Assembly (NCBI RefSeq): GCF_025947345.1
Contig: NZ_CP110011.1
Location: 4,975,001-5,039,000 of the forward strand
Direction of reading: 5' to 3'
Source: Flavobacterium sp. N502536
Lineage (GTDB): Bacteria; Bacteroidota; Bacteroidia; Flavobacteriales; Flavobacteriaceae
DNA length: 64,000 nt
Shown here: in pieces, positions 9,763 to 64,000 of the stretch
Numbering within the stretch: position 1 is the first letter of the stretch
Layout: each line of letters opens with the position of its first letter
Position numbers and translations under genes: made by a program
Notes under the pieces: model-generated
What the model was told of the DNA's origin: nothing
The model's input: only the letters and a program-made list of their open reading frames with translations
Database searches by the model: none

Positions 9763-11700
9763 CTAAAATAAAAATCCCCAATATTGGAAGTAAATACCAA
9801 TGAGCAATAGTGAAAACAAGATGGTAGCGACAACACCTGTATTGGAAATATGCTTGATTTTAAGCAGAAAGTACAGTATGCAAATGAGCGTAAATGCTAT
9901 AAAAATCCATTGCAATATGAAAAGGTAGTTAAACTGATCCGGTACTCCAAAAGCAAGGATGTAGAAGTTCAATTCGGCTGTACTGTTTACCGCCAAAACG
10001 AATCCGATAATGGTAAATATCCCTAGCAAAGAAGTTATTATGATCAGTGCCAGCAAAATTTTATCCGGTGTTTTTTCTTCTCTTTTTCTGATGAGGACGT
10101 AAGCAAATATGAAAATCGAAAGTAAAGCGATAATCAAAGCTGTGAAAAAAGGAGCAAAAAAGAGCAGATTGAATTCGTTTATACTGTTGGCAAAGTTCGA
10201 TATTCCGCCACTAATTTTTATGCCTGTAACAAAATGAACCTTATTGTCTGAATCCAGTTCTTTGGTGTCGGGTCTTTGAAATGGATTTTTTATAAATCTT
10301 TCGGCTATCTGAACGCCTACTATTGAAAAACCCGGAGTGTGACCAGAAATAGGAGCGTTTACCAAAAATGCATTCTTAAATCGTTCAAAGGTAATTTTAC
10401 CATTTAATGCCGGAGTGATGGGGTCAAAAGCACCAGCGAATACCAACACAGGAATAGTTAGCTTAGACAGGTTTGATAAATCATTTAGTCCTGATTGTTT
10501 GTTTGCTCCTAAATTCCATTTGTCACATACTACAAAATCTGATTTGTAAAAAGAGAGTCCTCCTTTTAATGCTTTGTAATTGCGGGCGTCTTTGTTAAAT
10601 TCTGAAATCGAATTGTTCGGGACCGCTTCGTTACAGCTTACACAATAATACTGTCCGTAATCTAAGCCCAGAGCTCCTGAAAAAGCAGCTACCAGCGAAC
10701 TTAAGGTGTTTTTGTTTCCTTTATTAAATTCGGATATTAATAGTGGGATTACTTCGATTAGTCTTTTTTGATATAGCGACTGCTGGATCGCAATCTTAAA
10801 ATCTTCCGCATTATAAGTAAACGTGCCACTCGAAATGATTCGATTATCGACTTTAACGGTAATTGGCTTTTTTTCTAATTTTTCAATGGTTTCGTAATAA
10901 GCTTCTTCCAGATTTGGGTATTGTTTGTTGCAATTAGGGTCGTTTTCGCAGGCAGTAAAAACTTTTTTAAGACTGCCCATATAGTTTGCAGTATTGTTAT
11001 TGTAATACTCGGAAATGTCTGAAATCGAAGAATCCAGCGTTAGTGATTTGATGTCCTGCGGAAAATCATTAGCATACACCTGAGCGGTATAGGTGCCATA
11101 AGAAACTCCATAAACATTCCATTTATCATAGTGCAAGGCGCTCTTTAAAGCGTTCAGATCTTTTACAATTGACTTACTGTTGTAGGCGCTTATGTCAATA
11201 TTTCTGTTTAACAAATCTTGCTTGCACTCTAATGAGGCGATTGTTTTTTGCTGCTCGTCCTGAGTACTGTTTTGATTTTTTGCCAGTATCTCTAAGAATT
11301 TTTTCCCCAGATCTGGGCAAAATTTTGGCAAAGAACGGCCGGTTCCTCTTACGTCAAATAAAACAATATCGCTGTTTTTTCGCAACGGATGGTCCAGCCA
11401 GGCCCATATTCCTTCAATACCTCCCGATCCCGGTCCGCCATCTATGTATACAACTGGATTTGAGTCTTTGCTTTTAGTGCTGCTCTTTAAAACCGCCACA
11501 GCAATTTTAACGGTTTTACCTGTTGGTTTGTCCCAGTTTTCAGGGACCGTCAAGTACCCCCATTCTATGTTTTCCTGAGAGAGTTGTTTATCTTCCGGAA
11601 AAAAAGTTTTTACTTTCTCTAATTTAAAAGCTTTTGTTTGTGCGAATGCAAAAGCGGGTACGATCAATACTAAAAAAAACAGGCTTAATACTTTTTTCAT
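9763..11700 (-). CDS. S33 alpha/beta hydrolase with C-terminal membrane segments
   Basis: A 645-residue exported hydrolase of the tripeptidyl-aminopeptidase/proline-iminopeptidase (S33) type. After a signal peptide (residues 1-20) come DGGPGSGG (about 87), the nucleophile elbow GVSYGT (Ser about 199), the acid in GAFDPITP (about 423) and the His in SGHTPG (about 452). Unusually, four hydrophobic segments follow after residue ~515, so the enzyme is probably membrane-anchored with its catalytic part in the periplasm. It starts 24 bases after the PPTase stop, which suggests a shared operon. It could trim a prodrug leader, degrade the peptide, or be a plain peptidase; the sequence does not decide. 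Confidence 0.8.
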   Translation of the reverse strand: MKKVLSLFFLVLIVPAFAFAQTKAFKLEKVKTFFPEDKQLSQENIEWGYLTVPENWDKPTGKTVKIAVAVLKSSTKSKDSNPVVYIDGGPGSGGIEGIWAWLDHPLRKNSDIVLFDVRGTGRSLPKFCPDLGKKFLEILAKNQNSTQDEQQKTIASLECKQDLLNRNIDISAYNSKSIVKDLNALKSALHYDKWNVYGVSYGTYTAQVYANDFPQDIKSLTLDSSISDISEYYNNNTANYMGSLKKVFTACENDPNCNKQYPNLEEAYYETIEKLEKKPITVKVDNRIISSGTFTYNAEDFKIAIQQSLYQKRLIEVIPLLISEFNKGNKNTLSSLVAAFSGALGLDYGQYYCVSCNEAVPNNSISEFNKDARNYKALKGGLSFYKSDFVVCDKWNLGANKQSGLNDLSNLSKLTIPVLVFAGAFDPITPALNGKITFERFKNAFLVNAPISGHTPGFSIVGVQIAERFIKNPFQRPDTKELDSDNKVHFVTGIKISGGISNFANSINEFNLLFFAPFFTALIIALLSIFIFAYVLIRKREEKTPDKILLALIIITSLLGIFTIIGFVLAVNSTAELNFYILAFGVPDQFNYLFILQWIFIAFTLICILYFLLKIKHISNTGVVATILFSLLLIGIYFQYWGFLF

Positions 11701-11724
11701 TTTGGTTTAATTAATGGGTTCGGT

Positions 11725-12363
11725 TTAAATTATAACTCTTTTCAGGTAGATTTCGCCGGCATCTGTTTTGAGCGAAATGTGGCATTTGTACTTTTCATCT
11801 ATTTTTACTTCGCTTAGATAGTATTTCTCTCCGTTGATTTCGGTGGTATTGTCTAAGACTTCAAATGATTTCAACGGTACTATTAGTCCATGTCCCTGAG
11901 CTTTTAAAACAGCTTCTTTTTGAGTCCAATACTCAAAAAAAGCTTCTTTTTTATTCTGAGACCGGGCAATTTTTGTCCATTCTATTTCTGTCATTTGCGG
12001 TTTAAAATCGGCGGTTTCAATATCGGTTATGATTTCAACATCAATACCAACTTCATGCTGATCGCTTAAGGCACAAACGACAATTTCGCCGGAATGTGAA
12101 ATATTAAAAAGCACTTGATTGTCTTCAAAATAGGGTTTGTTGTAAAAGGTTTGCAACAGCTGTTTTGCCCCTGGTTGCTTCTTGTAGGTTTCTTCAATTC
12201 CTTTAAACAGCAGTATTCGCCCTAAAAGCGACAATTGTGCATCTTGCCATCTTCGGTATCGTTTAATCTTTTCCTGATAATCGAGTGGAAATTGGGGTAA
12301 ATCATTCTGCAGTAAGCTTTGATGATTTTCCTCAGACAGGTAGGAGTAATAAATGTGAATCAA
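11725..12363 (-). CDS. Sfp-type 4'-phosphopantetheinyl transferase
   Basis: A 212-residue PPTase that moves the phosphopantetheine arm of CoA onto the active serine of carrier domains. The two signature motifs are present: VGIDVEI (about residue 107-113, Mg-binding Asp and Glu) and FFEYWTQKEAVLKAQG (about 137-152, the WxxKEAxxK motif). Length is typical of short Sfp/EntD-like enzymes. It lies 31 bases after the Gly-module NRPS and 24 before the S33 hydrolase. It very likely activates all the carrier domains of this cluster. Confidence 0.92.
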   Translation of the reverse strand: MIHIYYSYLSEENHQSLLQNDLPQFPLDYQEKIKRYRRWQDAQLSLLGRILLFKGIEETYKKQPGAKQLLQTFYNKPYFEDNQVLFNISHSGEIVVCALSDQHEVGIDVEIITDIETADFKPQMTEIEWTKIARSQNKKEAFFEYWTQKEAVLKAQGHGLIVPLKSFEVLDNTTEINGEKYYLSEVKIDEKYKCHISLKTDAGEIYLKRVII

Positions 12364-12394
12364 AAGTATTGGGGGATTTTAGTGGTTAAAACGC

Positions 12395-15300
12395 CTAAAA
12401 GTTAAAGTCAAAATCTGTTTCCTGGAGTTTGTTTGTACTCGCTAAAGGATATTCTATTTCTGATACTTTGAGTAAAGGGTTTTCTATTATTTGAGCTACT
12501 AAATTTTTAAAAGTAATCAGCAGAAACCGGATCGTAATTTCTTCATATTTGCTGCTGCCGTACGAAACGCTGATTTTCAGACTGTCTTCACTTTCGAAGA
12601 AATTAAAAAGCAAGGGGAATCGGCTGTAATTGGTATCGGCGGGTATGTATTTTAGTTCGGCATTGTCCATTTTTATGGTTTCCTGAAATGAAAAATCCGG
12701 ATTCTGATACGTTACCAGAACATCAAACAAGGTTTCTTTTTTGAGTTGCGGCAGAAGATCCTGATGTGTATTTATCAAAAGCATGTTGTCCTGCACTTGT
12801 TTTAAAAGCGCTAAAAAGCTCATACTTTCATTTAGCTGCGTACGAAGCGGCAGTGTTTTTACAAACATCCCAATCATGGTAGCGATATCGGCGATGTTTC
12901 TTCCCGAGTTTACGGTTCCGATTGCAATATCACTGTGATCATTAATTTTATAAATAAGCACATTCAAAAGCGAAATTATAATGTTATGCGGGGTGCTTTT
13001 TTGCTGCTGTGCCAATTGTTTCAGCGCTTTTGTCTCTTCTTTGGTAAACGCATCATAAAAATGTGCTCCGTTTTGCTGTTTATCATTGTGATTCCAATCG
13101 CTGTTAATCGTTTCTTTGATCGCATAACCCGCTAAATATTGCTGCCAAAATTCTAAAGAGGCTTTATCGTCTGCAGCGGTAGATAACCAGGCGGTATAAT
13201 CTTTGAACTGAATGCCTGTGTCTTTAATTATCGCATCGGGATGGTTGTACTTTTTAATAAATTCTTTGGTAAGATATTCTAATGAAACGCCATCCATAAT
13301 GATATGATGGGTACAAAATACTAACGAGGATGTGGTGTCGCTGGTGCGTACCAGCATCATTTTTAAAAGTAAATCCTGTTCTAAATCAAAAGGGGTTTCT
13401 ATGTATTGCTGAATAATTTCTGAAGCCTGTTCTTTTTTAGTTTCGATCTGAGTGATACTAAAGATGATATTTTCTTTTGGTTTAATTTTTTGAAAAACAG
13501 CTCCTTTGCTCTCTACAAAATTGGTGCGCAAGATCTCATTTTCAAGAATTAACTGAGATAAGGCATGGTTTATCTTATCCGGAAATACGGTTCCGTTAAT
13601 TTCAAAAACCGCTACCATATTGTAAGCGATTGATTTTTGAAGATCCTGACAGGCTACCCACAATTCCTGCTGTGAAGGCGTTATTTCAAAATCGGTTTTT
13701 AGAGATGTAAAAGGAATACCCGGTTTATTATTTGGTGTTAAAGTCGCTAAATGGCTGGCCATTACTCCAATTGTAGGATAATCGAAAATCGTTTTCAGGG
13801 TCACGTCGAACAATAAATTTTTGACTATTAATCCTGCCAGTTTCACTGCGTTTAACGAATGTCCTCCCAAAGCAAAAAAGTTCTCATTTGTACTTATTTC
13901 CTTTTTGCTGTTTAAAACTTCTTTCCAGTATTCTGAAAGTTTCTTTTCTAAAGGCGTATCCGCTGCTTTAAAATCGTCTCCTGTGTCAGTATGCTCAATG
14001 GCTCTTTGTGCCAGGTCCTTTCTGTCTATTTTTTGATTGGGCGTTAGTGGAAATTCATCCAAAAGAATAATTGTGTTGGGAATCATGTAGTACGGAAGAT
14101 TCATTTTTAAGGTAGTCACAATTGCTTTTGTGTCAATTGTTTCTTCTGTTTTTAGGACATACGCGACTAAAAAGGCTTCCTGCTGATTTCCTTTTTTTGC
14201 GATCACAACGGATTCTTTTATTCCTGAAATCTGATTCAAATGTGATTCTATGTCTCCCAATTCAATTCGGTACCCTCTAATCTTAACCTGATTGTCATTT
14301 CGGCCTAAAAATTCAATTTCTCCTTTATCATTCCAATGTCCGACATCGCCGGTTTCGTAGAGTAAACTGTCCGCTCGAAATGGATTTTTACTAAATTTTT
14401 CGCGAGTAAGTGCCTCATTTTTATAATAACCTTTTGCCAATCCGTCTCCGGCGATATAAATTGCTCCCGAAGTTCCTATGGGTTTAGGACTCAAAAAGGA
14501 ATCCAATATATAAATTTGGGTATTGTGGATGGGTTTTCCAATGTTTGAAGCCTCTTTTGAGTGTTCGAGTTTTTTTATACTGGACCAAATGGTTGTTTCT
14601 GTCGGGCCATACATGTTCCAGACTTCAAAATTGCTGTCGATTAATTTTTCGGCCAATGCTTCACTTAATAAGTCGCCGCCACAAAGTATTTTTAATCTTT
14701 TGTCTCCCTGCCAGTCTGCGTTGAACAGCATTTGATAAAAACTTGGTGTAGCCTGAATTATAGTTGGCCGGATCTCTTCTATTTTCTTGATGATAACAGT
14801 TGGATCTGCTAAAGTTTCCTGGCTCGCAATGTACAATGCGGCTCCTGACAACAGGGGTACAAAAAATTCTAAAATTGAAATATCAAAGGAGTAAGTTGTA
14901 ACCGAAAACCATACATCACCCGATCTAACTCCCGGCTCCTGCTGCATGCTGGTCAGGAAATTAAGCAAGGACTTATGCCCTATTTCAACTCCTTTTGGGT
15001 TGCCTGTTGAACCCGATGTATAAATGATATAAGCGGTGTCCTGAGGGGAAACACTTAGAGAGAGATTTTCTTCGGTTGCTGCTGTTGTTTCTAAGATGGT
15101 CTCTAAGGATATTATCTGTACCTCATCGCTGGAATTTAAACAGAAGCCATTTTCATTTATAAGTACGTTAACCTCGCTATTAGCAACAATATAGTTGAGT
15201 CTGTCTTCAGGGAATGTCGGATCCAGAGGAATGTACGATCTTCCCGCTTTCAATATGCCCAGTAAAACAATGACAATGTTTGCAGAACGTCCTAATAAAA

Positions 15301-16846
15301 CGGCAATTGGGGATTTATCCTCCTGCCCGTAAGTGTTTATTAGATATTTGGCTACCCGATCGGATACCTCATCAAGTTCTGTATAGGTATAGCTTTTATG
15401 ATCGTCTTTTAAAGCTTCTTTTGTACTGAATTTTACAACTTGTTCCCGAAATAAATCAAGTATAGTGCTGTCTTTTTGATAGTCTGCTTTTGTGGTATTG
15501 AATGTTTCGAGAACCTGACGTTTTTCATCATCTCCCAGATAATTTAGTTCTTTTACGATTTGATTAGGAGCTTCTAAAATGGCATGAATTAAATTTTCAA
15601 AATGATGGACTACCTGCGTAATCTGTGCCTCAGTGAAATAGTTTAAGTTGTAATCGAAGTCAATTTTCACCTCTTCATCTTCATCAAATTCTCTGATGTA
15701 AATGGCCAAAGCCACTCGCTCCGATTGGTGCGTTAACGGAATTACCTGTGTATGGGTATGAAGAAAATCATTTGAATAATTTTGTTTTTCATAAGAGAGG
15801 GTAATATTAAACAATCGCTCTTTCTCACTAAAAATATGAAGTCCCTGAATTAATTTCCCCAATGGAAATCTCTGATGGCGGTAATCGTGTCTTAATGTGT
15901 TTTTGATCGCTGTAATCAGATCTTCGAAAGTGGCATTAAAATCTATGGCAATTCTTAAAGGAGAAACTCCCATGAAAAGACCAACCGTTTTCTTGTAACT
16001 GAATTTACTTCTGTTTAAAACCGGCAACCCAATGGCAAAATCATTATTCTGGTGTTTTCTTCCAAAATAGGCATATAAAATGGCCAGAATCACATTAAAA
16101 GTAGAGCATTTGTAGTTTGCTGCCAGCTGGTTGAGCTGATTGTACACCTCTCTTTTTACAATTAATTCTTTACGATCGCTTTTATTGATTTGAATGTTGT
16201 CTTCTATTTTATCAAATAGATTTTGAGGCAGGGATTGAAATTTTTTAGTCCAGTATATTTTACCCTGCTCGTACGCTTCCGATTCCTGATAAGCCGCATC
16301 ATCGGCTGCGAAGTCCTTGTAACTAAAGGGATAGGTGCTCTTAATTTCCCCCTGTTCCAAAATCTCATTGTAGTTGTCTACCAGTCTCTGAAACATTAAG
16401 GAGGTTCCCCAACCATCCGTTATGATGTGATGGTACACTGAAAACAGGTAATGAAAGTTCTCCTGAACTTTAACCAGCGTAAAAACATGTAAAAGATGCC
16501 CTCCAAACAAGTCGAAAGGCTTTGCAAACTCCTGCTGCATGTATAAATTGGCTGTCTCGTAAGGCTCCTTCGATTGAGAAAAATCGACAAAACCCAAGGT
16601 CGAATTGTGCTCCTCGACTATTTTTATCTCAACGTTCTCACGTTCATTGGTCAGAATGCTTCTGTAGGAGTCGTGCTGATTGATCAGGGCAAGGTATGCC
16701 TGTTGAAATGCATCCCGGTTTATTTGACCTTTAATTTTTATTTTGGCCCCAATGTTATAGATAGGCTCATTGGGATATAGTAACTGCTCGAAATAAACAT
16801 CTTGTTGAGGAAGGGTAAGTTTCATTTTAAAATATTTTTTATGCAA
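12395..16846 (-). CDS. NRPS, C-A(Gly)-T-C
   Basis: A 1483-residue NRPS. C1 (~8-440) has YHHIITDGWG. The A domain (~460-960) has IYTSGSTGNPKG, YGPTETT, YETGD and NQKIDRK. The T domain has FFALGGHSLNA (Ser about 995). A second, C-terminal C domain (~1065-1480) has THHIIMDGVS. The pocket residues read D-I-L-Q-L-G-M-I-W-K, one change from the well-known Gly code DILQLGLIWK, so glycine is the likely substrate. A protein ending in a C domain must hand its product to a carrier on another protein or catalyse a terminal condensation. It lies downstream of the TE-bearing protein, so its place in the line is not colinear. Confidence 0.9.
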   Translation of the reverse strand: MHKKYFKMKLTLPQQDVYFEQLLYPNEPIYNIGAKIKIKGQINRDAFQQAYLALINQHDSYRSILTNERENVEIKIVEEHNSTLGFVDFSQSKEPYETANLYMQQEFAKPFDLFGGHLLHVFTLVKVQENFHYLFSVYHHIITDGWGTSLMFQRLVDNYNEILEQGEIKSTYPFSYKDFAADDAAYQESEAYEQGKIYWTKKFQSLPQNLFDKIEDNIQINKSDRKELIVKREVYNQLNQLAANYKCSTFNVILAILYAYFGRKHQNNDFAIGLPVLNRSKFSYKKTVGLFMGVSPLRIAIDFNATFEDLITAIKNTLRHDYRHQRFPLGKLIQGLHIFSEKERLFNITLSYEKQNYSNDFLHTHTQVIPLTHQSERVALAIYIREFDEDEEVKIDFDYNLNYFTEAQITQVVHHFENLIHAILEAPNQIVKELNYLGDDEKRQVLETFNTTKADYQKDSTILDLFREQVVKFSTKEALKDDHKSYTYTELDEVSDRVAKYLINTYGQEDKSPIAVLLGRSANIVIVLLGILKAGRSYIPLDPTFPEDRLNYIVANSEVNVLINENGFCLNSSDEVQIISLETILETTAATEENLSLSVSPQDTAYIIYTSGSTGNPKGVEIGHKSLLNFLTSMQQEPGVRSGDVWFSVTTYSFDISILEFFVPLLSGAALYIASQETLADPTVIIKKIEEIRPTIIQATPSFYQMLFNADWQGDKRLKILCGGDLLSEALAEKLIDSNFEVWNMYGPTETTIWSSIKKLEHSKEASNIGKPIHNTQIYILDSFLSPKPIGTSGAIYIAGDGLAKGYYKNEALTREKFSKNPFRADSLLYETGDVGHWNDKGEIEFLGRNDNQVKIRGYRIELGDIESHLNQISGIKESVVIAKKGNQQEAFLVAYVLKTEETIDTKAIVTTLKMNLPYYMIPNTIILLDEFPLTPNQKIDRKDLAQRAIEHTDTGDDFKAADTPLEKKLSEYWKEVLNSKKEISTNENFFALGGHSLNAVKLAGLIVKNLLFDVTLKTIFDYPTIGVMASHLATLTPNNKPGIPFTSLKTDFEITPSQQELWVACQDLQKSIAYNMVAVFEINGTVFPDKINHALSQLILENEILRTNFVESKGAVFQKIKPKENIIFSITQIETKKEQASEIIQQYIETPFDLEQDLLLKMMLVRTSDTTSSLVFCTHHIIMDGVSLEYLTKEFIKKYNHPDAIIKDTGIQFKDYTAWLSTAADDKASLEFWQQYLAGYAIKETINSDWNHNDKQQNGAHFYDAFTKEETKALKQLAQQQKSTPHNIIISLLNVLIYKINDHSDIAIGTVNSGRNIADIATMIGMFVKTLPLRTQLNESMSFLALLKQVQDNMLLINTHQDLLPQLKKETLFDVLVTYQNPDFSFQETIKMDNAELKYIPADTNYSRFPLLFNFFESEDSLKISVSYGSSKYEEITIRFLLITFKNLVAQIIENPLLKVSEIEYPLASTNKLQETDFDFNF

Positions 16847-17220: not shown

Positions 17221-17250
17221 TATTCATGACATTATTGTGTTGAACATGAT

Positions 17251-21699: not shown

Positions 21700-22065
21700 T
21701 TATTTTGCTTTGTAATTTTTGCAGATGTTCCACTTCGTGTTCTTCCCGATATATTTATTTTTATACCTCAATTGTACTGCCGACTCTTGTCTCACGCCGT
21801 TTATGATAAACTCTTTGTCGTTGAGTAAATACGATAACTTGCCAGTGCTTTTGGTTGCCAGTTTTTCTTTTACAATTTGGTTGCTGATTTCTTCAATGAG
21901 CTTTTCAACATTATTTACGTCAGCTGATTCTTTTATAGATTGTCCGGTAATGCCTGTGATCGTAAGTTGATTTTCCACCTGTTCTTTTTTCTTATTTTGT
22001 GCTATGCTGCTAGCGGAGATGAATAATATTAGGATAGCGGCAATTAGCGTTTTGGTTGTTTTCAT
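21700..22065 (-). CDS. Small secreted protein of unknown function
   Basis: A 121-residue protein with a clear signal peptide (LIAAILILFISASSIAQ). The mature part is short, charged and Lys-rich, with a segment resembling 'LLNDKEFIINGVRQ' found in small periplasmic proteins of Flavobacteria. I do not recognise a family. It lies between the outer-membrane barrel and the thioesterase, with gaps of 190 and 250 bases, so its link to the cluster is uncertain. Confidence 0.7.
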   Translation of the reverse strand: MKTTKTLIAAILILFISASSIAQNKKKEQVENQLTITGITGQSIKESADVNNVEKLIEEISNQIVKEKLATKSTGKLSYLLNDKEFIINGVRQESAVQLRYKNKYIGKNTKWNICKNYKAK

Positions 22066-22315: not shown

Positions 22316-23023
22316 TTACTGATAGTTCAGACTCGCACATTCATCAAAACTGGTTTCAAAAATCTTAATCAGATTATCTCCATTATTGAGTATGAAAAAA
22401 TGGTTTCCTTTGAGTACGTAGGAACTAAATCCCGAAGCAGTATGTTTTTTCCAGTTGTTGATTCGGTCTACGTATTTTTCTGAGTTCCCCATTATGGCTA
22501 CTATCGGAGATTTTACGACCGTATTTTCAATAAAAAAATCTTGTTCTACTATTTTAAAATCGGCTCTAAGTATCGGTAATACAAAATCTAACAGCTCTTT
22601 GCTTTGCAGCAATTCATCAGATATCCCTCCCAATTCGGTGAGCATATTGACGAAATCATCCCGATCCAGATCAGATCGGTCGTTGTCGCTTGTGATTCCG
22701 GGTCCGGCGTTGCCGCTTACAATAAGACATTGGGGCGGAGTGTTGTTTTTCTCCAATAAATCGGTTACCCCCAAACCTAAAGAGGAACCTAAACTGTGCC
22801 CGTAAATGATAAATGGATTGCCATTAAGCTGCGCTGTTATTTGCGAAAAGATATCCTGAATGGCCTCCTTATAAGAAGTAAGTAATTTTTCTTTGATTCT
22901 TTTTCCTCTGCCTGGAAGCTCTACCGGTATCATTTCAAAATCGGTGTAAGCTGACTTCAGAAATTCAAAGGAGTATATGCTACCACCGGCAAAGTGCAGT
23001 AAGAATAGTTGCTTTTTTTTCAT
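22316..23023 (-). CDS. Type II (editing) thioesterase
   Basis: A 235-residue alpha/beta-hydrolase of the GrsT/SrfA-D group. It opens with LFLLHFAGGS, has the nucleophile elbow YGHSLGSS (Ser about 77), and has the catalytic His in GNHFFI (about 207). Such enzymes clear mis-primed or stalled acyl groups from carrier domains. It is free-standing and lies next to the CmlA-like gene (gap 88 bases), in addition to the integrated TE at the end of the large NRPS. Confidence 0.9.
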   Translation of the reverse strand: MKKKQLFLLHFAGGSIYSFEFLKSAYTDFEMIPVELPGRGKRIKEKLLTSYKEAIQDIFSQITAQLNGNPFIIYGHSLGSSLGLGVTDLLEKNNTPPQCLIVSGNAGPGITSDNDRSDLDRDDFVNMLTELGGISDELLQSKELLDFVLPILRADFKIVEQDFFIENTVVKSPIVAIMGNSEKYVDRINNWKKHTASGFSSYVLKGNHFFILNNGDNLIKIFETSFDECASLNYQ

Positions 23024-54724: not shown

Positions 54725-54743
54725 GGTTTTTTGACTAGTACGG

Positions 54744-57700
54744 TTATAGCATTTTGTTCAATTCCTCCAGACTGCTTAAATCCAGCCCTTTGTAGGTAAA
54801 ATCAACAGGGGTTAAATGAGTTTCTTTTTCTTCGGAAAGACCCGAAATCAAATGTTCCAGTTCTGTTTTATACGCTTCTTTTAAGTTTTCTATGGTTTCG
54901 TTTTTGAAGTAATGGGGATTAAATGAAAGCATGAGCTGAAGCTGACCGTTGATTAAGATTCCTGATATATCGAGTGTTCCGGTTCTTTCGGTATCCGCCG
55001 CGATTTCCTTTCCTTTGGCGATATCGGTAAATTGAAATAACTGGTCTTTTTTCTCCGATTTCCCTAAATCAAAATCGCCCAGGTAGTTGAAAGAAACATC
55101 GGCTTTTATGTTTAAATCACAGCCTTTTAGGTATTTTAAGATCCCGAATCCAATGCCTTTATTCGGAATTCGATGCAGCGTTTCTTTTACTTCTATGAGC
55201 TGATGAATGTTATCGTGTTTCTTTTTAAGCGCAATCAATACCGGATAGATTGTCGTAAACCAACCCACGGTTCGGGTTACATCTGTGTCTGAGCTGATGT
55301 CTTCTCTTCCGTGGCCTTCCAGTTGAATGGCTACATTTTCTATATTGAAATTTTTACCTATTGCCAGCGATAAGGCTGTAATCAAAACATCGTTTATGGT
55401 GGTTTTATACGCTTTGTGTGATTCTGTCAGCAATTTTTCAGTAGTGTTTTGATCCAACTGAAATACTTTTGTTTCAAAATCTTTATACAAATTGACACCC
55501 TGATACTCAAAATCTTTAGGAAGTTCTGAGGTATTAAATTGTGCTGTTTCGTTTATCGATGACCAGTACACTTCCTCTTCCATCATCGTCATTGAATTGG
55601 CATATTCCAATTGTTTTTCCTGCCAGTATTTTAAAGAGTGTGTTTTTAAAGGCAATTCTAATGCTGTTCCGGCTTCGTATTGTGCGTACAATTCCATTAA
55701 ATCTTCCAGAATAATTCTCCAGGAAACCCCGTCAACCACTAAGTGATGCGAAAGCAACAGCAAATAATCGGCATCCTCTTTTTTTAAGAGAACTGCTTTA
55801 AACAAAGGGCCTTTTTCTAAATTGAAAGAAGATTGATGCTGCTCGCAAATTGCATTGAATTCAGCATCGGCAACATTGGAATGCACATTCAGACTAAATT
55901 CAAAACCTTCATTTTTAACTTCCTGAATCCAGTGACCATTTTCCTCTTTGAATACTGTTCTTAAGGCATCATGATGCGCAGTTAGTTTTTGAAAAATTTG
56001 TGTCAGTCCTTCTTCAGACAATCGCTTTACTGATTTTAATACAATCGACTGATTAAAATGATTTTTATTTCCGGAGGTCTCTTCAAAGAAATATTTCTGA
56101 ATGGGTGTAAGCGGAATGGTTCCTTCTACCGCAGTCTGGTCTATTTCTTCCTTGACCAATTTTACGTGCAGCGCCAGTTCCTGTATAACGGTATACTGCA
56201 TAATATCCTGTACCGTCAGTACAAAACCAATTTGTTTTAGTTTAGAAATAATTTGAATGGCTTTGATAGAATCGCCTCCCAAGGCAAAAAAATCGGCTGT
56301 AACACTTACATTTTCTTTTTGCAATATTTGCTGAAATACATGTACCAGAGCAGCTTCAATTTCGTTTCCGGCTGGTATATAAGCGTCTTTGTGTAGGGAC
56401 TCTTTGTTGGCCAAAAGCAACAGGGCCTTTTTATCTACTTTACCGTTTGGCAATAACGGAAATTCACCCGATTGTGTGTAAGTCCCTGGGATTGCGTATA
56501 CCGGTAATTGTTCTTTCAGATGTTTTTTCAGATCGTCGATATTGAGTGTGGTACGGGTTAAAATATGTCCTACCAAAGCCTCTTCGCTATAGGTTACCAC
56601 TGCTCCGTCGATGTCTTTGAAATTTAACAGGGCATTTTCAATTTCTCCCAGTTCCAGACGATTTCCTCTGATTTTGATTTGATTGTCTTTTCGGCCTAAA
56701 AACTCAATATTGCCATCTGAAAATCTTTTCCCTAAATCCCCCGTTTTGTACATTTTAGTTCCGGGTTCAAACGGATTGTTTATAAATTTTTCTTTGGTAA
56801 GTTCGGGGTTGTTTAAATACCCGCTCGATAATCCTTTACCGGCAATATGAAGTTCGCCGATAAGCCCGTCAACTGCCAATTCATTGTTCTCGTTTAAAAT
56901 ATAAACCGAACTGTTTGCAATGGGTTTTCCGATTGAAGGAATAAACTCCTGCCCTTGCTCATATACATAATAACTGGCCCAAACCGTACATTCGGTAGGT
57001 CCGTATTCATTAAAAAGTTTACAGTTTTTTAGGGTTGCAACACTCTGATGTAAATCAACCAGTCCTTTTGTGCATTCTTCTCCCGCTACAATAACCGTTT
57101 TTAATGTATGGGTACGCTCTTCCAATTCGCTAAGCAACAATTGATAGTAGGAAGGAACGGTAAGCAAATGAGAAACCTCTTCGTCCACAATAAGATCGAC
57201 TATGGTATGGATGTCCGAAACTCTGATTTTCGGTGCAAAAACCAATTTTGCTCCGCCTGCAATGGTGCCGAAAATTCCGGCGATCGAACTGTCAAATGAG
57301 ATGGAAGACAGTAATAAAAATGCTGTTGCATCCGGATACGTATCAAGTCTGGCAATGGTCGAAAACATTAAATTTCCATGATCTATCACCACTCCTTTTG
57401 CATTACCTGTAGATCCTGAAGTATAAATTACATAAGCGGCATCAGCAGGATTTACCTGCACTTCCAGAGTGGCATTTTCTGTTCCAAGAGCATCCATCTG
57501 AATGTCTGTGGCAAAAAATTCACCCGTATAAAAGTCGAGATCAAAAAGATACTCCGATTGTGTGAGCAGGACGTTTAACTTACTGTCCTGAATAATATGC
57601 TGAATTCTTTGTTTTGGATATTCCGGATCTATTGGCACATAGGCACTTCCCGTTTTTAAAATTCCTAAAATGCACACTAATACATTTTCAGAATTGTTGA

Positions 57701-59480
57701 TCATTAGTCCGATAAAATCGTTCTTTTTAAGGCTATGATTGGCCAGCAAATAATTGGCCAGTCGGTTCGATTGCTCGTCTAATTCTTTATAGGTCAGCTT
57801 TTTGTTTTTAAAGGCCAGTGCGATCGCTTCGGGCTTTTTTTGTAGCTGTTCTTTAAATAAATCCAGTATTGTTTTTCCGTGATCGTAAGAAAGGAAATCC
57901 CCTTTGGAAATTTGCAAAAGCGCTTCTTTTTGCTGCGCTTCGATATGTTCTAATTTATAGATTTGTTCGTCAGGATTGTTTACAATTGAGTTCATGATGA
58001 CCGTAACATGACCGGCGATCTGCTCTACGATTTTTGCTGAAAAAACATCGGTATTGTACTGAATGTTCAACACCAAGTTGTCCTTTTCTTTGTAGAAACT
58101 AAAAACCATATCAAATCGGCTGGTCGCTAATTTTTCTTCAAATTCATAAGCCCACACTTTCAGGCCTTCCAGACTTTCGCTTTTTTTAGAGTTGTCATTT
58201 TCTCCGTAAATGACCTGAACGTCAAAAAGAGGGTTTCTGCTCGGATCTCTTTTTAAGTTTAACTCTTTTACGAGTGTAGCAAAAGGAAACATTTGATGTT
58301 CGTAAGCCCCAAGTACCTGCTTTTTGGTATAATCCAGCAATTCTAAAAAAGTGTTTTCTTTTTTAAACTGCATTCGCATGGCCAGCGTATTTCCGTAATA
58401 CCCTATCTGGTTTTGCAAATCGGCATCTTCCCTGCCGGAAACCGGAGTTCCGATGATGATATCCTCCTGAGTCGAAAATTTATACAACAACGTATTGATT
58501 ACGGCTGTCAATCCCATAAACATGGTAGCGCCATTTTCTCTGATCAGTTTTTCAACTGCTTCTGATAATTTTGCATCGATTTTCTTTTCTACAGTACCGC
58601 CATTGAAGGTTTGCAGTATCGGTCTTTTTTTATCGACCGGCATGGTCAGAACCGGTAGTTCTCCGCTGAACTCCTTAAGCCAGTAGGTCTTAAGCTCTTC
58701 GTATTTTTTGCCAGTAAGCTGTTCGTTTTCCCAGTGGGCATAATCCTTATATTGGATTCTTAAAGCATTTAGATTGTTGGCTCTGTTTTGCTTTTTCGAA
58801 TTGTATAATTCCAATATTTCCCCAATAAAAATATTCATCGAAACAGCATCCACAATGATGTGATGAATGGTGTAAATAAAGGCCCATTTGTTTGGTTCTA
58901 ACTGGTAAAGCTTTGTTTTAAAAAGTGGTCCTTTGGATAAGTGAAAAGGAATTACAGCATCCTTAGCGATTTGTTCTTTTAAAATTTCATCCGCATTTGC
59001 AGTATTTTGTAAATCAGCATATTCAATCGAAAAATCAATCGCTTCGATCGCTTTAACCACCTGATTGGCGCCTCCGTTTCCATCTTCTTCAAAGACAGTT
59101 CTCAAACTTTCATGACGCACTACTACTTCCTTGAGAGATTCATTTAAAGTATTTTGATCCAGTGTTCCTTCAAAAATATATCCTCCTACAGAGTTGTAGG
59201 CCACATTTCCTTTTTCGGACTGACTTAAAATCCAAAGTCTTAATTGTGAAGAAGACAGCCCGTATTTTGCATCCGGATTGCTGTCAATTTTAGGAATGAC
59301 TCCCGCTTTGTCGTACTTGTATTGGTTAATAAAACTAATTAAATCGGCTTTGTTTCTTTTAATTTCGTCAATAATATCGGGAGTTAACGCACCCGTAGGC
59401 GCTTTAATGTCAAGATTATCGTCTTTTACGTCAATATGAATGTTCTGTTCTTTTAGTTTTAAATATAAATCTGATACCAT
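54744..59480 (-). CDS. NRPS, dock-C-A-T-E (D-amino-acid module)
   Basis: A 1578-residue NRPS. A TubC-type docking segment (1-55) is followed by C (~70-500; IHHIIVDAVS, with Ala for Gly), A (~530-1010), T (FFALGGDSIKA, Ser ~1069) and a full epimerisation domain (~1120-1540). E-domain marks are HHLVVDGVSWR (~1248), EGHGRE, TRTVGWFTTIYP and FNYLG. The GGDS form of T is the one usually found before E. The A pocket reads D-S-A-L-I-A-E-V-W-K, almost the same as A2 of the terminal NRPS; I cannot assign its substrate. It should add a D-residue. A CmlA-like gene lies 63 bases upstream. Confidence 0.92.
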   Translation of the reverse strand: MVSDLYLKLKEQNIHIDVKDDNLDIKAPTGALTPDIIDEIKRNKADLISFINQYKYDKAGVIPKIDSNPDAKYGLSSSQLRLWILSQSEKGNVAYNSVGGYIFEGTLDQNTLNESLKEVVVRHESLRTVFEEDGNGGANQVVKAIEAIDFSIEYADLQNTANADEILKEQIAKDAVIPFHLSKGPLFKTKLYQLEPNKWAFIYTIHHIIVDAVSMNIFIGEILELYNSKKQNRANNLNALRIQYKDYAHWENEQLTGKKYEELKTYWLKEFSGELPVLTMPVDKKRPILQTFNGGTVEKKIDAKLSEAVEKLIRENGATMFMGLTAVINTLLYKFSTQEDIIIGTPVSGREDADLQNQIGYYGNTLAMRMQFKKENTFLELLDYTKKQVLGAYEHQMFPFATLVKELNLKRDPSRNPLFDVQVIYGENDNSKKSESLEGLKVWAYEFEEKLATSRFDMVFSFYKEKDNLVLNIQYNTDVFSAKIVEQIAGHVTVIMNSIVNNPDEQIYKLEHIEAQQKEALLQISKGDFLSYDHGKTILDLFKEQLQKKPEAIALAFKNKKLTYKELDEQSNRLANYLLANHSLKKNDFIGLMINNSENVLVCILGILKTGSAYVPIDPEYPKQRIQHIIQDSKLNVLLTQSEYLFDLDFYTGEFFATDIQMDALGTENATLEVQVNPADAAYVIYTSGSTGNAKGVVIDHGNLMFSTIARLDTYPDATAFLLLSSISFDSSIAGIFGTIAGGAKLVFAPKIRVSDIHTIVDLIVDEEVSHLLTVPSYYQLLLSELEERTHTLKTVIVAGEECTKGLVDLHQSVATLKNCKLFNEYGPTECTVWASYYVYEQGQEFIPSIGKPIANSSVYILNENNELAVDGLIGELHIAGKGLSSGYLNNPELTKEKFINNPFEPGTKMYKTGDLGKRFSDGNIEFLGRKDNQIKIRGNRLELGEIENALLNFKDIDGAVVTYSEEALVGHILTRTTLNIDDLKKHLKEQLPVYAIPGTYTQSGEFPLLPNGKVDKKALLLLANKESLHKDAYIPAGNEIEAALVHVFQQILQKENVSVTADFFALGGDSIKAIQIISKLKQIGFVLTVQDIMQYTVIQELALHVKLVKEEIDQTAVEGTIPLTPIQKYFFEETSGNKNHFNQSIVLKSVKRLSEEGLTQIFQKLTAHHDALRTVFKEENGHWIQEVKNEGFEFSLNVHSNVADAEFNAICEQHQSSFNLEKGPLFKAVLLKKEDADYLLLLSHHLVVDGVSWRIILEDLMELYAQYEAGTALELPLKTHSLKYWQEKQLEYANSMTMMEEEVYWSSINETAQFNTSELPKDFEYQGVNLYKDFETKVFQLDQNTTEKLLTESHKAYKTTINDVLITALSLAIGKNFNIENVAIQLEGHGREDISSDTDVTRTVGWFTTIYPVLIALKKKHDNIHQLIEVKETLHRIPNKGIGFGILKYLKGCDLNIKADVSFNYLGDFDLGKSEKKDQLFQFTDIAKGKEIAADTERTGTLDISGILINGQLQLMLSFNPHYFKNETIENLKEAYKTELEHLISGLSEEKETHLTPVDFTYKGLDLSSLEELNKML

Positions 59481-59543
59481 AAGATGAATTATTAAAGGAA
59501 ATAAATTGATATTAGTTTTTGTGTGGGAAGGATTAAATCGGAG

Positions 59544-61160
59544 TTAGTACGATAACACGCTTTGTTTAAACAGTTCTTTTTCGGCAAATAATCTTTCGGC
59601 GACGATGCCCCTGTTTTGGCAATCTTTGATTAACATATTGGATTGTACGATTGGGTTGGATTCGTCTGTATATTCAACATCCAAAATGTGTCGCACCCAC
59701 GGTTCTTCTCCCATGGCGTATACATAGACTTCTTTGACATTAAAGCAGTTGACCATCTTGATTCCTTCCTCATAATTACTGCCTCTTCCTCTTCGGCTGA
59801 AATCTTTTTCGCGTTCCTGTTTAGTGGTAAAAATAGGTCCGTAAACCCAGGAAGCAGGGGCTCCGTCGCATTCCATTCCCATAAACAAAACATCGACATC
59901 ACCGATAATTTCATGCACATGTTCGTACAATTCAGGCGACTGATTGCAGGAGTCTGCCACTGCCAATAGCGAGTAACCGTCTAATTCGACGTGATACGAA
60001 AGTTTGCTGTTGATGTGAATGTCGTGGTGTTCTCCGATAAATGGAATTCCTGTAATTTTTATACCATCGATAGCCGAAATGGTTTGCAGTTCTTCTAATT
60101 CGATAATGTTTTCGAAGCCCAGGTTTCGCAGCAATAAATTCAATGATGGGTCCTGTATGGCTCCGCCTATGCTTTTTCCAACTACTATGTGTTTTACTTT
60201 GTGTCTGATTTGCAGCATCGTTTCCATCAATATGTGGTCGTGATGCCCGTGTGTGATGAGTACATAATCTATTTCGTCCGGCAAATCGTCATACGTAAAT
60301 CGGGATACATCCGATTCGTAGGTGTAACTCAAAACCGGATCGAGCACGATAGAGTGTTCTTTGGTTTCGATCAGGATACAGGCATGTCCGAAGTATCGGA
60401 TACGCATGCTGTCTCCGGTATATTTTTCATATTTTTTAGGTTCCTGTGTGGTAAACAAATCTTTAAACAGTGCTTCATCGTTTTTATCAATGTTCAGCAG
60501 GTTCGCAATGTATTCGAAAGTTTGAGGCTCACGTTTCATCTTAAACAATTCGTCGATTTGTTTCGATTTAAAAGGCAATTTTAGTTCCAGTGCCGCCTCC
60601 AGGTTAGATAATCTTGGCGTAGAGAAAATAAAAGGTCTGTCTGCATCCTTATTAATTAAAGACAGTTTCACCGTTTGAAAGGATTCTACATAATACGGAC
60701 TTGCATAAATCAGCGGTTCGTAAAACCTAAAGTCGGGTCTGTGATGTCTGTCATAATACAATTCGACATACCCTCTGATTGCCGAAGGAACTTCTTTGTA
60801 AAGCGGCTGCATTAAATGTCCGGTGGCTTTTTTCTTCAGCAGTTTATCCAGTTCTTTTACGGCATCTGTAAATTCAAAAAGCGGCGCTGCCATTTGTTTT
60901 GTTCTTTCGAGCAGGGCGGCTACTTCGTCAACGTGTTTTTTATCTAAATCTATAAAAGGGCCTCCTCTAAACGCAGGGTCTTTTACGGCTGTCTCATGTA
61001 TCACAGGATCGTTTATATACGATTCCATAATCGGAATGTAGCGGTTCACCACGTTAAATCCCGTAAGGATTGGCGGTATAATATGATGCCATGCGTACCA
61101 ATTTGAAATTAACGGTTCGACCTGTACGTTATTTTTCAGATATATTTTTTGAGTAGCCAT
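59544..61160 (-). CDS. CmlA-like diiron beta-hydroxylase (2)
   Basis: A 538-residue paralogue of the hydroxylase at 23112-24740, with the same N-terminal domain and metallo-beta-lactamase fold. Candidate metal ligands are THGHHDH (about 303-308), Glu in GEHHD (about 375) and Asp in VADSC (about 401). The start was set at MATQKIYLKNN because this aligns with the start of the paralogue; the open frame extends to 61244 but its first 28 codons look non-coding. It lies between two NRPS genes (gaps 37 and 63 bases). It should hydroxylate an aminoacyl-carrier intermediate, perhaps of the C-A-T-E module next to it. Confidence 0.85.
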   Translation of the reverse strand: MATQKIYLKNNVQVEPLISNWYAWHHIIPPILTGFNVVNRYIPIMESYINDPVIHETAVKDPAFRGGPFIDLDKKHVDEVAALLERTKQMAAPLFEFTDAVKELDKLLKKKATGHLMQPLYKEVPSAIRGYVELYYDRHHRPDFRFYEPLIYASPYYVESFQTVKLSLINKDADRPFIFSTPRLSNLEAALELKLPFKSKQIDELFKMKREPQTFEYIANLLNIDKNDEALFKDLFTTQEPKKYEKYTGDSMRIRYFGHACILIETKEHSIVLDPVLSYTYESDVSRFTYDDLPDEIDYVLITHGHHDHILMETMLQIRHKVKHIVVGKSIGGAIQDPSLNLLLRNLGFENIIELEELQTISAIDGIKITGIPFIGEHHDIHINSKLSYHVELDGYSLLAVADSCNQSPELYEHVHEIIGDVDVLFMGMECDGAPASWVYGPIFTTKQEREKDFSRRGRGSNYEEGIKMVNCFNVKEVYVYAMGEEPWVRHILDVEYTDESNPIVQSNMLIKDCQNRGIVAERLFAEKELFKQSVLSY

Positions 61161-61197
61161 TTCAATAGATTTTATAGTTTTAAAAAATGTAGTTTGG

Positions 61198-64000
61198 TTA
61201 TATAGAGATATTTTCAAAGTCATCACTAATAGTGACTTCAGCATTTACGAGTTGTGCTTTCTTGATTTCACCGGCCATTGCTTCTAAAGTAGCATTGTTG
61301 AAAATCGAAATAAGGTCGAGCTTTGCGTTAAATTCCGTTTTTATTCTGGTGATCAGATAAGTGGCTTTTAAACTGTGACCGCCTATTTTAAAAAAGTCAT
61401 CCAGTACCCCCACCTGATCCACTTCCAAAACTTCTTCCCACAAAGCAGCAAGTTTACTTTCTACCTCATCGCGGGGTGCCAGATAGTTTCTCGAAAAGTT
61501 TTCGGTTAGTGACTTGTTCTGTAAAAGTTTCTTTTTGTCTATTTTTCCATTTAGGGTAAGCGGAAATTCTTTTAAACTTATAAAGTGAGACGGAATCATA
61601 TATTCCGGCAGTTTGTCTTCTAAAAATTCTTTAATATCATCTGTATCTGAAACCGAATCGGGAGTCAGTACAAAAAAGGCAACGGTTTCCTTAATCCCTA
61701 AACTGTCTTCTTTGACTACTACCACAGCATCTTCGATCGCTTCGTGTTGTTTGATGACGGTTTCTATTTCGCCCAGTTCAATTCTAAAGCCTCTCACTTT
61801 TACCTGATCGTCATTTCGTCCGGCATATTCAATCGCACCATTAGCAAGCCATTTTCCTAAATCACCGGTTTTGTATAATTTTTCACCTTCGGCAAAAGGA
61901 TTGTTTATAAACTTTTGATGTGTCATTTCAGGATTGTTCAGATAGCCCTGGGCTAAACCGGCTCCGCTTACATAAATTTCACCGATGGCGCCAAACGGAA
62001 GCAATTTTTCATCAGTTCCCAGTATGTAAATTTTGGTGTTGGCAATCGGGAATCCTATCGGAACATTTGCTTGTTCCTGTAACGAATCGTTTCCGTCGAT
62101 CTTATAAATGGTAGCGCAAATACTGGTTTCTGTAGGACCGTAAGCATTAAAGCAAGTTCCGCCATAGGTCAGGTATTTTTTTACTTCTTCTACAGGAGCC
62201 GCTTCTCCAGCGGTTACGAGCTTTTTTAAATTTTTAATTTTATCGAGCTGTACTAATTTTAAATACGACGGAGAAATGGTGGCAAAATTAATAGCATGCT
62301 CCTCGATGTAATTTTCTAATTCTTCGGTGTCTTTTTTTAGCTCATCCGTTATGAGGTGTAATTCTCCACCCGAAGCCAAAACGGTGAATATTTCAGAAAT
62401 GGAAGCATCAAACGAAAAGGAAGCTAACTGAAGCGCTCTTTCTTTGTTTTCATTTCCAAAAATTTCGATCTGCGACAAAATGGTATTCGCAATCGCAGCG
62501 TGTTGTATCGCCACTCCTTTCGGGTTACCTGTTGAACCGGAGGTGTAAATAAGATAAGCCAGGTCATCCGGATTGCTGTCAGCTGTATCTAAAACACTGC
62601 TGTAAAGCTTTTCCATCGATCTGAAATCGTAAATTTCATCGGAATCAATAACCAGTTTACAATCGCTGTTTTCAATAATATAATCAATTCGTTCCTCCGG
62701 ATAAGCGATGTCGATTGGTACATAAACTCCTCCACTTTTTAAAATGGCCAATAACGAAATGACATTCCACTCGCTTCGGTTTAATTTAACACCAACAAAT
62801 TCATTTGGTTTTACACCGTATTTTTTCTTTAAATAATTCCCCAGCTTGTTGGATACTTCATCCAGTTCCTGATAGGTTATTTTTTATCTTCAAAAACAAT
62901 TGCTGTTTGTTCCGGCGTTTTTGCTGCCTGTTTGGTAAACAACTCTGTTAAGGTTTTCGGCTCTGCGCTATAATCTCTATCGGTTTTATTAAAAACATGA
63001 AGCAGTAAGTTTTCTTCTTCGGCATTCAGGAAAGACAAGGCAGCCAGGCTTTGATCGGTATTTAAAATTACCTGATTCAGCAGTACTTTTAAGTTGGCGA
63101 TCAGTCGTACAATGGTTTCGCGAACATACAAGCCCGATTTGTATTCAATTTTACCTTCTAACTGTCCTTCGCTTTCGATGAAGTTGAATACTAAGTCAAA
63201 CAAACATTTTTTCAGGGTTACCTCATTGTATTCTGCAATTTGCAGGTTTTCTATTTCGAGTGTCTGTTTGTCGGCCTCAATAGCATTGTCTCTTAACACA
63301 AACCATACATCAAATAATGGGTGTCTGTTACGACTCATTTGCAAATCTAAATTGAGCACCAGTTCATCAAAAGCAACCATTTGATTTTCCTGTGCATCGA
63401 TAACACTTTGCTCTACTTTGTGTAGTAAATGGGTAAAATCGTTATTTTCGTCGAATACCGTTCGCAATGGAACCGTGTTGATATAAAGTCCAATCTGGTC
63501 TTCTAAATCGGTATGGATTCTGCCTCCTATGGGTGTTCCTACGGTAATATCCTGTTGCTGGGTATATTTGTACAATAAGGTTTTAACGAGAGCCAAAAGT
63601 CCGGTAAAAACCGTGACTCCGTGACTCGCACAAAAGTTTTTGAATTTTGAAAGGGTTTCTTTTTCAATAATAAAATCAACCGAATCTCCCTGATAAGCAT
63701 TGATTGCTGCTCTTGATTTATCAGTAGGAAAGTCTAGTACAGGTACTTCGCCTTCAAACTTTTTTAACCAATGCTGTAACTGATTTTTATAATCCTCTGT
63801 TTGAAACTGATCGGTTTGCCATTGCGCATAATCTTTGTACTGAATTTTTAAATCGGGAGCCGTTACCGCCTTTCCTTTGGCCAGCGTTTGGTAATGGGAT
63901 ACAAACTCTTTGGTCAGGATGTTCATCGACAATCCATCACTGATAATATGGTGCATGACAAACGAAAATATCCATTGATCGTCTTGTAGCTGATACAATT
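61198..64000 (-). CDS. NRPS, ...C-A(aromatic)-T, frameshifted and cut by edge
   Basis: The 3' part of an NRPS whose 5' end lies beyond 64000. The visible C domain begins just before MHHIISDGLS and is followed by A and T. The frame breaks in the A domain: after FEDKK a stop occurs at 62877-62879, and adding one A to the A6 run (62880-62885 on the plus strand) restores KKITYQELDEVSNKLG through to the downstream frame. The A pocket reads D-A-S-T-V-A-A-I-C-K, close to Phe/Tyr codes. The T domain has FFKIGGHSLKA. As written, translation ends early in the A domain; a sequencing error is the simplest cause. Confidence 0.88.

Follow-up and report, generated by a model that had tools for sequence, protein, structure and literature searches.

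A Flavobacterium NRPS-PKS gene cluster with a candidate 4-hydroxyphenylglycine pathway and a predicted oxidised amino acid-C2 unit

What would an assembly line for 4-hydroxyphenylglycine (Hpg) make in a Bacteroidota genome, and where did its Hpg pathway come from? Both questions are raised by a stretch of 64,000 nucleotides from Flavobacterium sp. N502536 (the window; positions 4,975,001-5,039,000 of a single-contig genome of 5,052,333 bases), which contains most, not all, of a cluster of nonribosomal peptide synthetase (NRPS) and polyketide synthase (PKS) genes. An earlier note on this DNA had listed an Hpg supply cassette, two adenylation (A) domains with Hpg-like pockets, a PKS module, two CmlA-like hydroxylases, a D-module, a thioesterase (TE) and a nearby 16S gene, and all of these are present. 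Three points escaped it: the 4-hydroxymandelate synthase (HmaS) falls in a clade of its own in our trees and is accompanied by a GlcD-type oxidase, the acyltransferase (AT) of the PKS module has lost its catalytic Ser, and a luciferase-like monooxygenase (LLM) sits between a condensation (C) and an A domain. We propose, at a probability of roughly 60%, that a single NRPS-PKS line would build a peptide of some 14-15 residues, two of them Hpg, that also carries an α-oxidised Hpg-C2 unit. The domains, codes, motifs and synteny on which this rests were read from the sequence; the substrates, the order of the proteins, the residue that is β-hydroxylated, the LLM chemistry and the export role of the ABC gene are deduced from them.

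A supply of Hpg, as the earlier note had it, is well supported by the site that separates HmaS from HPPD (4-hydroxyphenylpyruvate dioxygenase), by synteny and by the co-occurrence of A-domain codes. Three adjacent genes, on the minus strand like the whole cluster, make up the cassette: an HpgT-like class I/II aminotransferase (36492..37634; PF00155), a predicted HmaS (35361..36479), and a GlcD/D-lactate dehydrogenase-type FAD oxidase (33979..35355; PF01565 and PF02913) in the place of Hmo. In the proposed route, the HmaS, derived from HPPD, would convert 4-hydroxyphenylpyruvate to 4-hydroxymandelate, which the FAD enzyme would oxidise and HpgT would then transaminate.

That certain residues tell hydroxymandelate synthase from HPPD is stated, without naming them, in the accessible part of PMC3720870; the F-to-I rule applied here is backed by printed solved sequences. 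At the discriminating site, the solved HmaS 2r5v and the nearest PDB relatives 7yvv and 3zgj (both deposited as HPPD) read NI, while the HPPD 1t47 reads NF. The window protein carries GLDNI, whereas the genome's own HPPD, a separate gene at 1,464,767 with 37% identity, carries GAGNF. Across a 61-row set, the site is I or V in 29/29 non-actinobacterial and 13/13 actinobacterial HmaS rows, and F in all 19 HPPD rows. An HPPD variant with another use, with A-domain pockets that take another residue such as Tyr, is the competing explanation, and two scores speak for it: the protein reaches 276.9 bits on the NCBIfam HPPD model (cut-off 277), and its family profile fits HPPD structures (up to 240 bits) better than the Amycolatopsis orientalis HmaS 2r5v (172). 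We nevertheless regard this explanation as highly improbable, given the separate HPPD gene, the Ile at the discriminating site, the HpgT gene that adjoins HmaS in all 17 close loci, and the Tyr-type code DASTVAAICK already present elsewhere in the line.

The family is not confined to this strain. The search returned 391 HmaS homologues, and among the 120 listed, all 12 bearing an organism name are Bacteroidota. Of 535 loci 80 were kept, and the 17 closest of these (L004-L020), some nearly identical to one another, are Bacteroidota; NRPS DNA flanks HmaS in 17/17 and the FAD oxidase in 12/17. The claim that Hpg peptides are classically actinobacterial is thus too narrow. Formadicins, from the Bacteroidota genus Flexibacter, are nocardicin-like and hence Hpg-derived; they differ from the product predicted here in being monocyclic β-lactams. 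Among the literature matches listed, with most subscription journals not covered, there was no paper on Bacteroidota Hpg biosynthesis. The named loci with an HmaS 99-100% identical to that of the window are all titled Flavobacterium: F. tructae CCUG 60100 (L005), the metagenome-assembled genome nzgw149 (L004), and UGB4466 (L008). The F. tructae and window copies of HmaS share 99% identity, against 81-89% for adjacent cluster genes, a gap that may reflect recombination or strong constraint. Within the genus, 357 of 398 sampled genomes give some match; 6 carry one at 85-100%, the other matches listed being HPPDs at 36-39%. Such patchiness would fit a strain-specific weapon or signal.

Two variants of the cassette deserve mention. 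Five loci (L009, L010, L011, L013, and L020) have HmaS, HpgT and NRPS genes with no FAD oxidase in the flank; L013 is possibly cut off, since the locus ends about 400 bases past HmaS, and in the other four another enzyme may carry out the oxidation. Two Acidobacteriota loci (L022 and L025) encode HmaS-like proteins with Val at the diagnostic site beside NRPS genes, with no HpgT or oxidase match in the flank.

How this cassette relates to that of actinobacteria was examined through its oxidase and its HmaS. The actinobacterial cassette of vancomycin, teicoplanin and ramoplanin is HmaS-Hmo-HpgT, with an FMN-dependent Hmo, in the part of PMC6677016 consulted. The Flavobacterium cassette shares the three-step logic and the Ile signature of HmaS, but its oxidase is not an FMN-dependent Hmo. 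It is a GlcD-like FAD_binding_4/FAD-oxidase_C protein that scores 341 bits on TIGR00387, under the equivalog cut-off of 567.9, and has LctD and a glycolate oxidase as its best solved relatives; an equivalent reaction is possible. In a careful tree, 24 Bacteroidota-type HmaS rows and five others (three Acidobacteriota, one Moraxellaceae, and one Microscillaceae) form one clade with 100/100 support, nested within HPPDs of Ignavibacteriota and similar phyla and away from actinobacterial HmaS. Forcing all HmaS rows into one clade is rejected on the full set (approximately unbiased test, p-AU 0.002).

A common HmaS ancestor with the actinobacterial enzyme, spread by transfer, would be the alternative. 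When seven distant or partial rows were dropped and the diagnostic residue was masked, the joint clade was no longer rejected (p-AU 0.094); both of our trees are flagged for long branches and for the odd composition of the actinobacterial rows, and the sole actinobacterial HPPD is partial. The two HmaS groups nonetheless stay apart in both trees, and the placement inside Ignavibacteriota-type HPPDs, the full-set rejection and the different oxidase family make transfer improbable. Because the HmaS clade lies apart from actinobacterial HmaS and the oxidase is GlcD-type, unlike Hmo, we favour separate assembly of the Hpg pathway in Bacteroidota, although this is not proved. The cluster places Hpg chemistry in a second large phylum, possibly through separate pathway assembly, and the second HmaS lineage offers material for learning how one residue switches HPPD to HmaS.

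Hpg must also be accepted by the line, and the A-domain codes agree with the Hpg-type pockets named earlier. Codes were extracted by script, and their reading as residues follows published codes. Of the 83 complete codes in six clusters with HmaS (the window with L001 and L002, F. tructae, HSC-32F16, F. geliluteum, G454, and IP29b), 18 are DIFH codes, against 0/45 in NRPS stretches without HmaS in the retrieved DNA, namely a second cluster of the same genome at 3.01-3.09 Mb, G211, and four F. tructae stretches. Independence of these sets cannot be assumed: window and F. tructae are orthologous, as are the second cluster and parts of F. tructae, and both F. tructae and the window genome have HmaS elsewhere. 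Among other mapped HmaS loci, DIFH occurs in five (G761, L012, L014, L015, and L018) and in none of ten with short flanks. The nearest solved relative of the A domain of N4 is that of the linear gramicidin synthase LgrA (476 bits; next molecule 340). The domain matched there is the second LgrA A domain, which takes Gly, so the pocket for Hpg may have evolved from one for Gly.

The order of the line was read largely from F. tructae. The cluster spans about 70 kb, running from 9763 upward; past 64000 it continues outside the window as far as the end of the contig and picks up again at the opposite end (L002, up to 5085), with frames broken there. The F. tructae counterpart is uninterrupted on a single contig (NZ_MUHH01000018.1; 70.3 kb, 7851-78173 of the retrieved stretch) and was therefore used to read module order. 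It comprises 14 A domains, one module that lacks an A domain and one PKS module; the window copy follows the same order wherever readable. The first two F. tructae proteins are half-C-A(DLYNNALTYK)-T-C-A(DLYNNALTYK)-T-C and half-C-A(DGFFLGVTFK)-T-C-A(DAFWLGGTFK)-T, where T is a thiolation domain. These are followed by C-A(DVWHISLIDK)-T-C-A(DASTVAAICK)-T, a CmlA, and C-A(DSALIAEVWK)-T-E, with E for epimerisation, and then by C-A(DIFHFGLIFK)-T-C-A(DAFWLGGTFK)-T, C-A(DIFHFGLIFK)-T, the ketosynthase (KS) protein KS-AT-T, and C-LLM-A(DILLMALIIK)-T. After the LLM module come HpgT, HmaS, the FAD oxidase, and C-T-C-A(DSALTAEVWK)-T-C-A(DAEDVGSVSK)-T-TE, and the last genes are a second CmlA, a type II thioesterase, a receptor, an ABC exporter, N1, a phosphopantetheinyl transferase, and a hydrolase. 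Leaving N1 aside, we take the codes to stand for Ala, Ala, Ile-like, Val, Ser, Tyr, X, Hpg, Val, Hpg, X, X, and Lys-like; no residue is assignable to DSAL[IT]AEVWK or DILL[LM]ALIIK. Between the two Ala-type A domains of F. tructae stands a C domain in which our own pattern finds no HHxxxD; its counterpart in the window genome reads HHAIGDGWS.

In the window, the line enters with the second C domain of N7 (62877..64000), which continues outside as TubC_N-C-A(DVWHISLIDK, Ser-type)-T-C, and with the frameshifted 3' part of the same gene, A(DASTVAAICK, Tyr-type)-T (61198..62751; assigned by Pfam and one frame in F. tructae). A CmlA-like diiron β-hydroxylase (59544..61244; PF18456, E=4.5e-82) separates these from N6 (54744..59480), TubC_N-C-A(DSALIAEVWK)-T-E, which is the D-module, with the E motif HHLVVDGVSWRI. 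N5 (48461..54724) is C-A(DIFHFGLIFK, Hpg-type)-T-C-A(DAFWVGGTFK, Val-type)-T, and N4 (45223..48399) is C-A(DIFHFGLIFK, Hpg-type)-T. The PKS gene (42484..45195) and N3 (37865..42385), TubC_N-C(HHIICDSRS)-LLM-A(DILLLALIIK)-T, follow, and beyond the cassette N2 (24768..33707) is TubC_N-C-T-C-A(DSALTAEVWK)-T-C-A(DAEDVGSVSK, Lys-like)-T-TE, with T motifs LGGHS, LGGDS and IGGYS and the TE motif GYSMG at its end. The second CmlA-like hydroxylase (23112..24740; PF18456, E=1.6e-96) shares with the first the PF18456 and metallo-lactamase domains of the CmlA type; Tyr is a candidate target for β-hydroxylation.

The order proposed in the earlier note (aromatic, D-X, Hpg, Val, Hpg, C2, X, ?, X, basic) matches these codes, which run DASTVAAICK, DSALIAEVWK with E, DIFHFGLIFK, DAFWVGGTFK, DIFHFGLIFK, KS, DILLLALIIK, an A-less C-T, DSALTAEVWK, and DAEDVGSVSK, but it describes only the 3' portion of the assembly line. 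The aromatic residue is not the first: Ser-, Val-, and Ile-like modules and two Ala-type modules precede it, beyond the window.

The start of the line probably lies with N1 (12395..16846), C-A(DILQLGMIWK, Gly-type)-T-C, near the far end of the cluster. We infer this role from the last domain of N1, a C domain that nothing follows, and from the first NRPS protein upstream, which opens with an apparent degenerate C-terminal half-C before its A domain. That half-C scores weakly in the window genome (23.7 bits, under the Pfam cut-off) and, with our own profile, in F. tructae (10.8 and 6.5 bits); that of the second upstream protein is clearer (42.7 bits), and within the line, too, a full C ending one protein precedes a half-C opening the next. 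The first-protein N-termini of F. tructae, HSC-32F16, F. geliluteum, G454, and G211 are all alike (E 1e-158 to 1e-16), and the second F. tructae protein matches its first (E 2e-11), whereas that of IP29b gave no match to those of the other clusters. Besides the clusters of F. tructae, HSC-32F16, F. geliluteum, and G454, two Kordia loci and another NRPS stretch of F. tructae encode N1-like proteins; none was found in the retrieved IP29b stretch, where the first frame begins with a different A-like domain. Loading of the A-less module of N2 in trans was considered as the main role of N1 and rejected, as N1 also occurs where that module has its own A domain.

The PKS module is the point at which the line departs from amino acids. 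Its KS motifs (TACSTSL, EAHGTGT, and NIGHT) and acyl carrier protein (ACP) motif GCDS are present, but the AT motif reads GVGTGE where GHSxGE is expected, so that the nucleophilic Ser is gone. Seven clusters have the C-LLM arrangement, and the Ser is lost in 6/6 that have an AT: GVGTGE in the window, GVGIGE in F. tructae and G761, and GQNIGE in HSC-32F16, F. geliluteum, and G454; in the seventh, IP29b, the AT is deleted. Intact motifs are found elsewhere, in the second cluster (GHSTGE), in the two PKS modules of G211 (GHSLGE), and in two HmaS loci with a KS and no LLM seen in the stretch (L009, GHSLGE; L014, GHSIGE). This loss could mean that the whole module is dead, with no C2 added and a KS that merely passes the chain on. 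We consider that rather improbable: the KS Cys motif, the ACP Ser and the whole module are kept in all seven clusters, and loading in trans is well known for PKSs without an AT. The preferred reading is accordingly that of an active KS, which would add one C2 to the second Hpg from malonyl-ACP loaded in trans. The cluster has no dedicated trans-AT gene; a candidate loader is the only stand-alone AT that the genome has, a FabD-like one encoded outside the cluster at 2601358, and three further AT matches lie inside larger frames elsewhere in the genome. A β-ketone would be left, because there is no ketoreductase.

The LLM domain of N3 (39710..40726) is a member of TIGR04020, the MupA/Atu3671 family (418.9 bits; cut-off 244.45). 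Agrobacterium fabrubactins, from the Atu3671 line, carry an α-hydroxy-β-keto acid. The nearest solved relative of the domain is PuwE (6ket, 315.9 bits). In puwainaphycin biosynthesis, the 2-hydroxy group is assigned to this monooxygenase, which there stands after a plain PKS extension and before an NRPS module, in the available portion of PMC4219810. The Bacteroidota compounds YM-47141 and YM-47142, cyclic depsipeptide elastase inhibitors of Flexibacter, contain an amino acid-C2 unit oxidised at the α carbon, given for YM-47141 as 2,3-dioxo-4-amino-6-methylheptanoic acid in the text seen of PMC8954713. That residue is what a Leu-C2 unit oxidised at the α carbon would be. On the combined likeness to PuwE, the 2-hydroxy group of puwainaphycin and the YM-47141 residue, we propose an α-oxidised Hpg-C2 unit.

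Differences from both systems are clear. PuwE includes an aminotransferase domain and takes a fatty acyl chain as its substrate, as far as the same portion of PMC4219810 describes it, whereas the predicted Flavobacterium substrate is an Hpg-ended peptide, the PKS and N3 have no aminotransferase domain in Pfam, and the LLM is placed after C. The YM-47141/47142 residue is Leu-type, not Hpg, in the part of PMC8954713 consulted, and no paper on YM-47141 genes stood out among the literature matches listed, themselves seen in part. A phylum-wide LLM search put 3 of 395 genomes over the cut-off, and none of the mapped ones (the window genome, G211, and a G250 fragment) has a Leu-KS-C-LLM arrangement.

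Alternatively, the LLM could act on the amino acid of its own module, leaving the C2 unit a plain β-keto amide, as Mox domains inside the Gly A domains of myxobacterial lines act on their own module's residue. The wider family gives this some weight. It comprises 4284 proteins at E <= 0.001, and in the best 120 of them 82 of 121 LLM domains lie inside the A domain, straight after A sequence. One such domain is in a KS-bearing protein (P0294, KS-AT-T-C-A-LLM-A), and some proteins, such as P0343 and P0345, combine LLM and formyltransferase domains with no KS. The Flavobacterium line G211, too, has an LLM within a Gly-type A domain directly before a KS (G211:C1:4323991-4329447, L155). These A-inserted and formyltransferase-linked LLMs are why an action on the module's own residue must be considered. 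Against it, the cluster LLM sits between C and A right after the KS gene in 7/7 mapped clusters (KS gene, then C-LLM-A-T gene, then HpgT, HmaS, and oxidase), although the A code of its module changes (DILLLALIIK, DILLMALIIK, DIFHYGLIFK, and DIMQLGLIWK), and P0260 has KS-AT-T-C-LLM-A-T fused in one protein. We therefore judge action on the module's own residue possible but unlikely. The C motif HHIICDSRS was also tried as a mark of a C domain after a KS and discarded, as the fused P0260 and P0262 read HHIISDGWS.

Apart from these A-inserted LLMs, several other observations weigh against an α-oxidised Hpg-C2 peptide from a single line. The AT motif is intact in P0260 and P0262, which means that C-LLM work does not depend on a dead AT. 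In HSC-32F16, F. geliluteum, and G454 our own pattern did not pick up the third KS motif. The Hpg code DIFHLGLLCK returned no paper in the literature search. The module marked '?' in the earlier note is present as C-T yet has no A domain, while its counterparts in HSC-32F16, F. geliluteum, and G454 have one. The first C domain of N1 shows no clear starter type, matching TycC (97 bits), SrfA-C (88), 7c1k (86), and 8f7f (86), the last two of which we take to be starter C domain chains. Two frameshifts, near 62.8-62.9 kb (between N7 and its last A-T) and near 37.6 kb (at the N-terminus of HpgT), may be sequencing errors or real, and would count here if real; in F. tructae both genes are single frames, HpgT with 445 aa.

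Taken together, the proposed single line would start with N1 supplying a (possibly acylated) Gly, followed by Ala-Ala-(Ile-like)-Val-Ser-(β-OH-)Tyr-D-X-Hpg-Val-Hpg. After the C2 extension, the N3 LLM would oxidise the α carbon to give an α-hydroxy-β-keto amide, and a second oxidation would give a vicinal tricarbonyl (2,3-dioxo-4-amino-4-(4-hydroxyphenyl)butanoyl), so that the unit is possibly a vicinal tricarbonyl as in YM-47141. N3 and N2 would add X-(?)-X-Lys, and the TE would release the chain, probably with cyclisation. The fullest version of the proposal is that Bacteroidota invented the Hpg pathway alone, with an HPPD-derived HmaS and a GlcD-type oxidase, and that this Flavobacterium family uses it, with an AT-dead PKS and C-LLM, for Hpg-derived vicinal-tricarbonyl peptides; this we hold only tentatively and with considerable doubt. 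If true, the vicinal tricarbonyl would be a serine-protease-trapping group, and the same KS and C-LLM logic would also explain YM-47141 biosynthesis. For Bacteroidota peptides, the cluster offers a testable link between genes and the chemistry of oxidised amino acid-C2 units. To a specialist, the main interest lies in the second HmaS lineage, paired with a foreign oxidase, and in the core of AT-dead KS and C-LLM.

The remaining cluster genes, all on the minus strand, are accessory. An α/β hydrolase (9763..11700; PF00561/PF08386) is the last cluster gene and stands in the equivalent place in F. tructae, HSC-32F16, F. geliluteum, and G454. Next to it lies a 4'-phosphopantetheinyl transferase (11725..12363; PF01648). 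Beyond N1 are a cyclic-peptide-type ABC exporter (17251..18885; TIGR01194, 301.8 bits, cut-off 286.2), which may export the product, and an outer membrane β-barrel receptor (19023..21509) above the PF14905 cut-off, with a PF07715 plug slightly under its own. A small open reading frame with no Pfam match (21700..22065) and a type II thioesterase (22316..23023; PF00975) complete the set.

The first NRPS gene has a NusG-family paralogue (PF02357; L002:5336-5845, minus strand) immediately upstream, which may act as an antiterminator for giant operons. A 93% copy occupies the equivalent place in F. tructae, and two more (46%) directly precede NRPS genes in the second cluster; the HSC-32F16, F. geliluteum, G454, IP29b, and G211 stretches gave no tblastn match. 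The second NRPS-PKS cluster itself (3,020,000-3,088,000, at about 3.01-3.09 Mb; L084-L087) has a CmlA, the two NusG paralogues, and the intact AT motif. Flavobacterium NRPS-PKS clusters elsewhere include BGC298, which is linked to disease suppression. More AT and partial C-domain matches in large frames at 4,886,000-4,899,500 of the same genome perhaps mark a third PKS-type locus. Outside the cluster, the window carries a bacterial 16S gene (213-1726) and a Flavo-1 RNA (2421-2500), in keeping with a Flavobacterium host, and a 1110-aa frame with four collagen-like stretches (5888-9220) lies beside a CHU_C type IX secretion protein (4618-5844).

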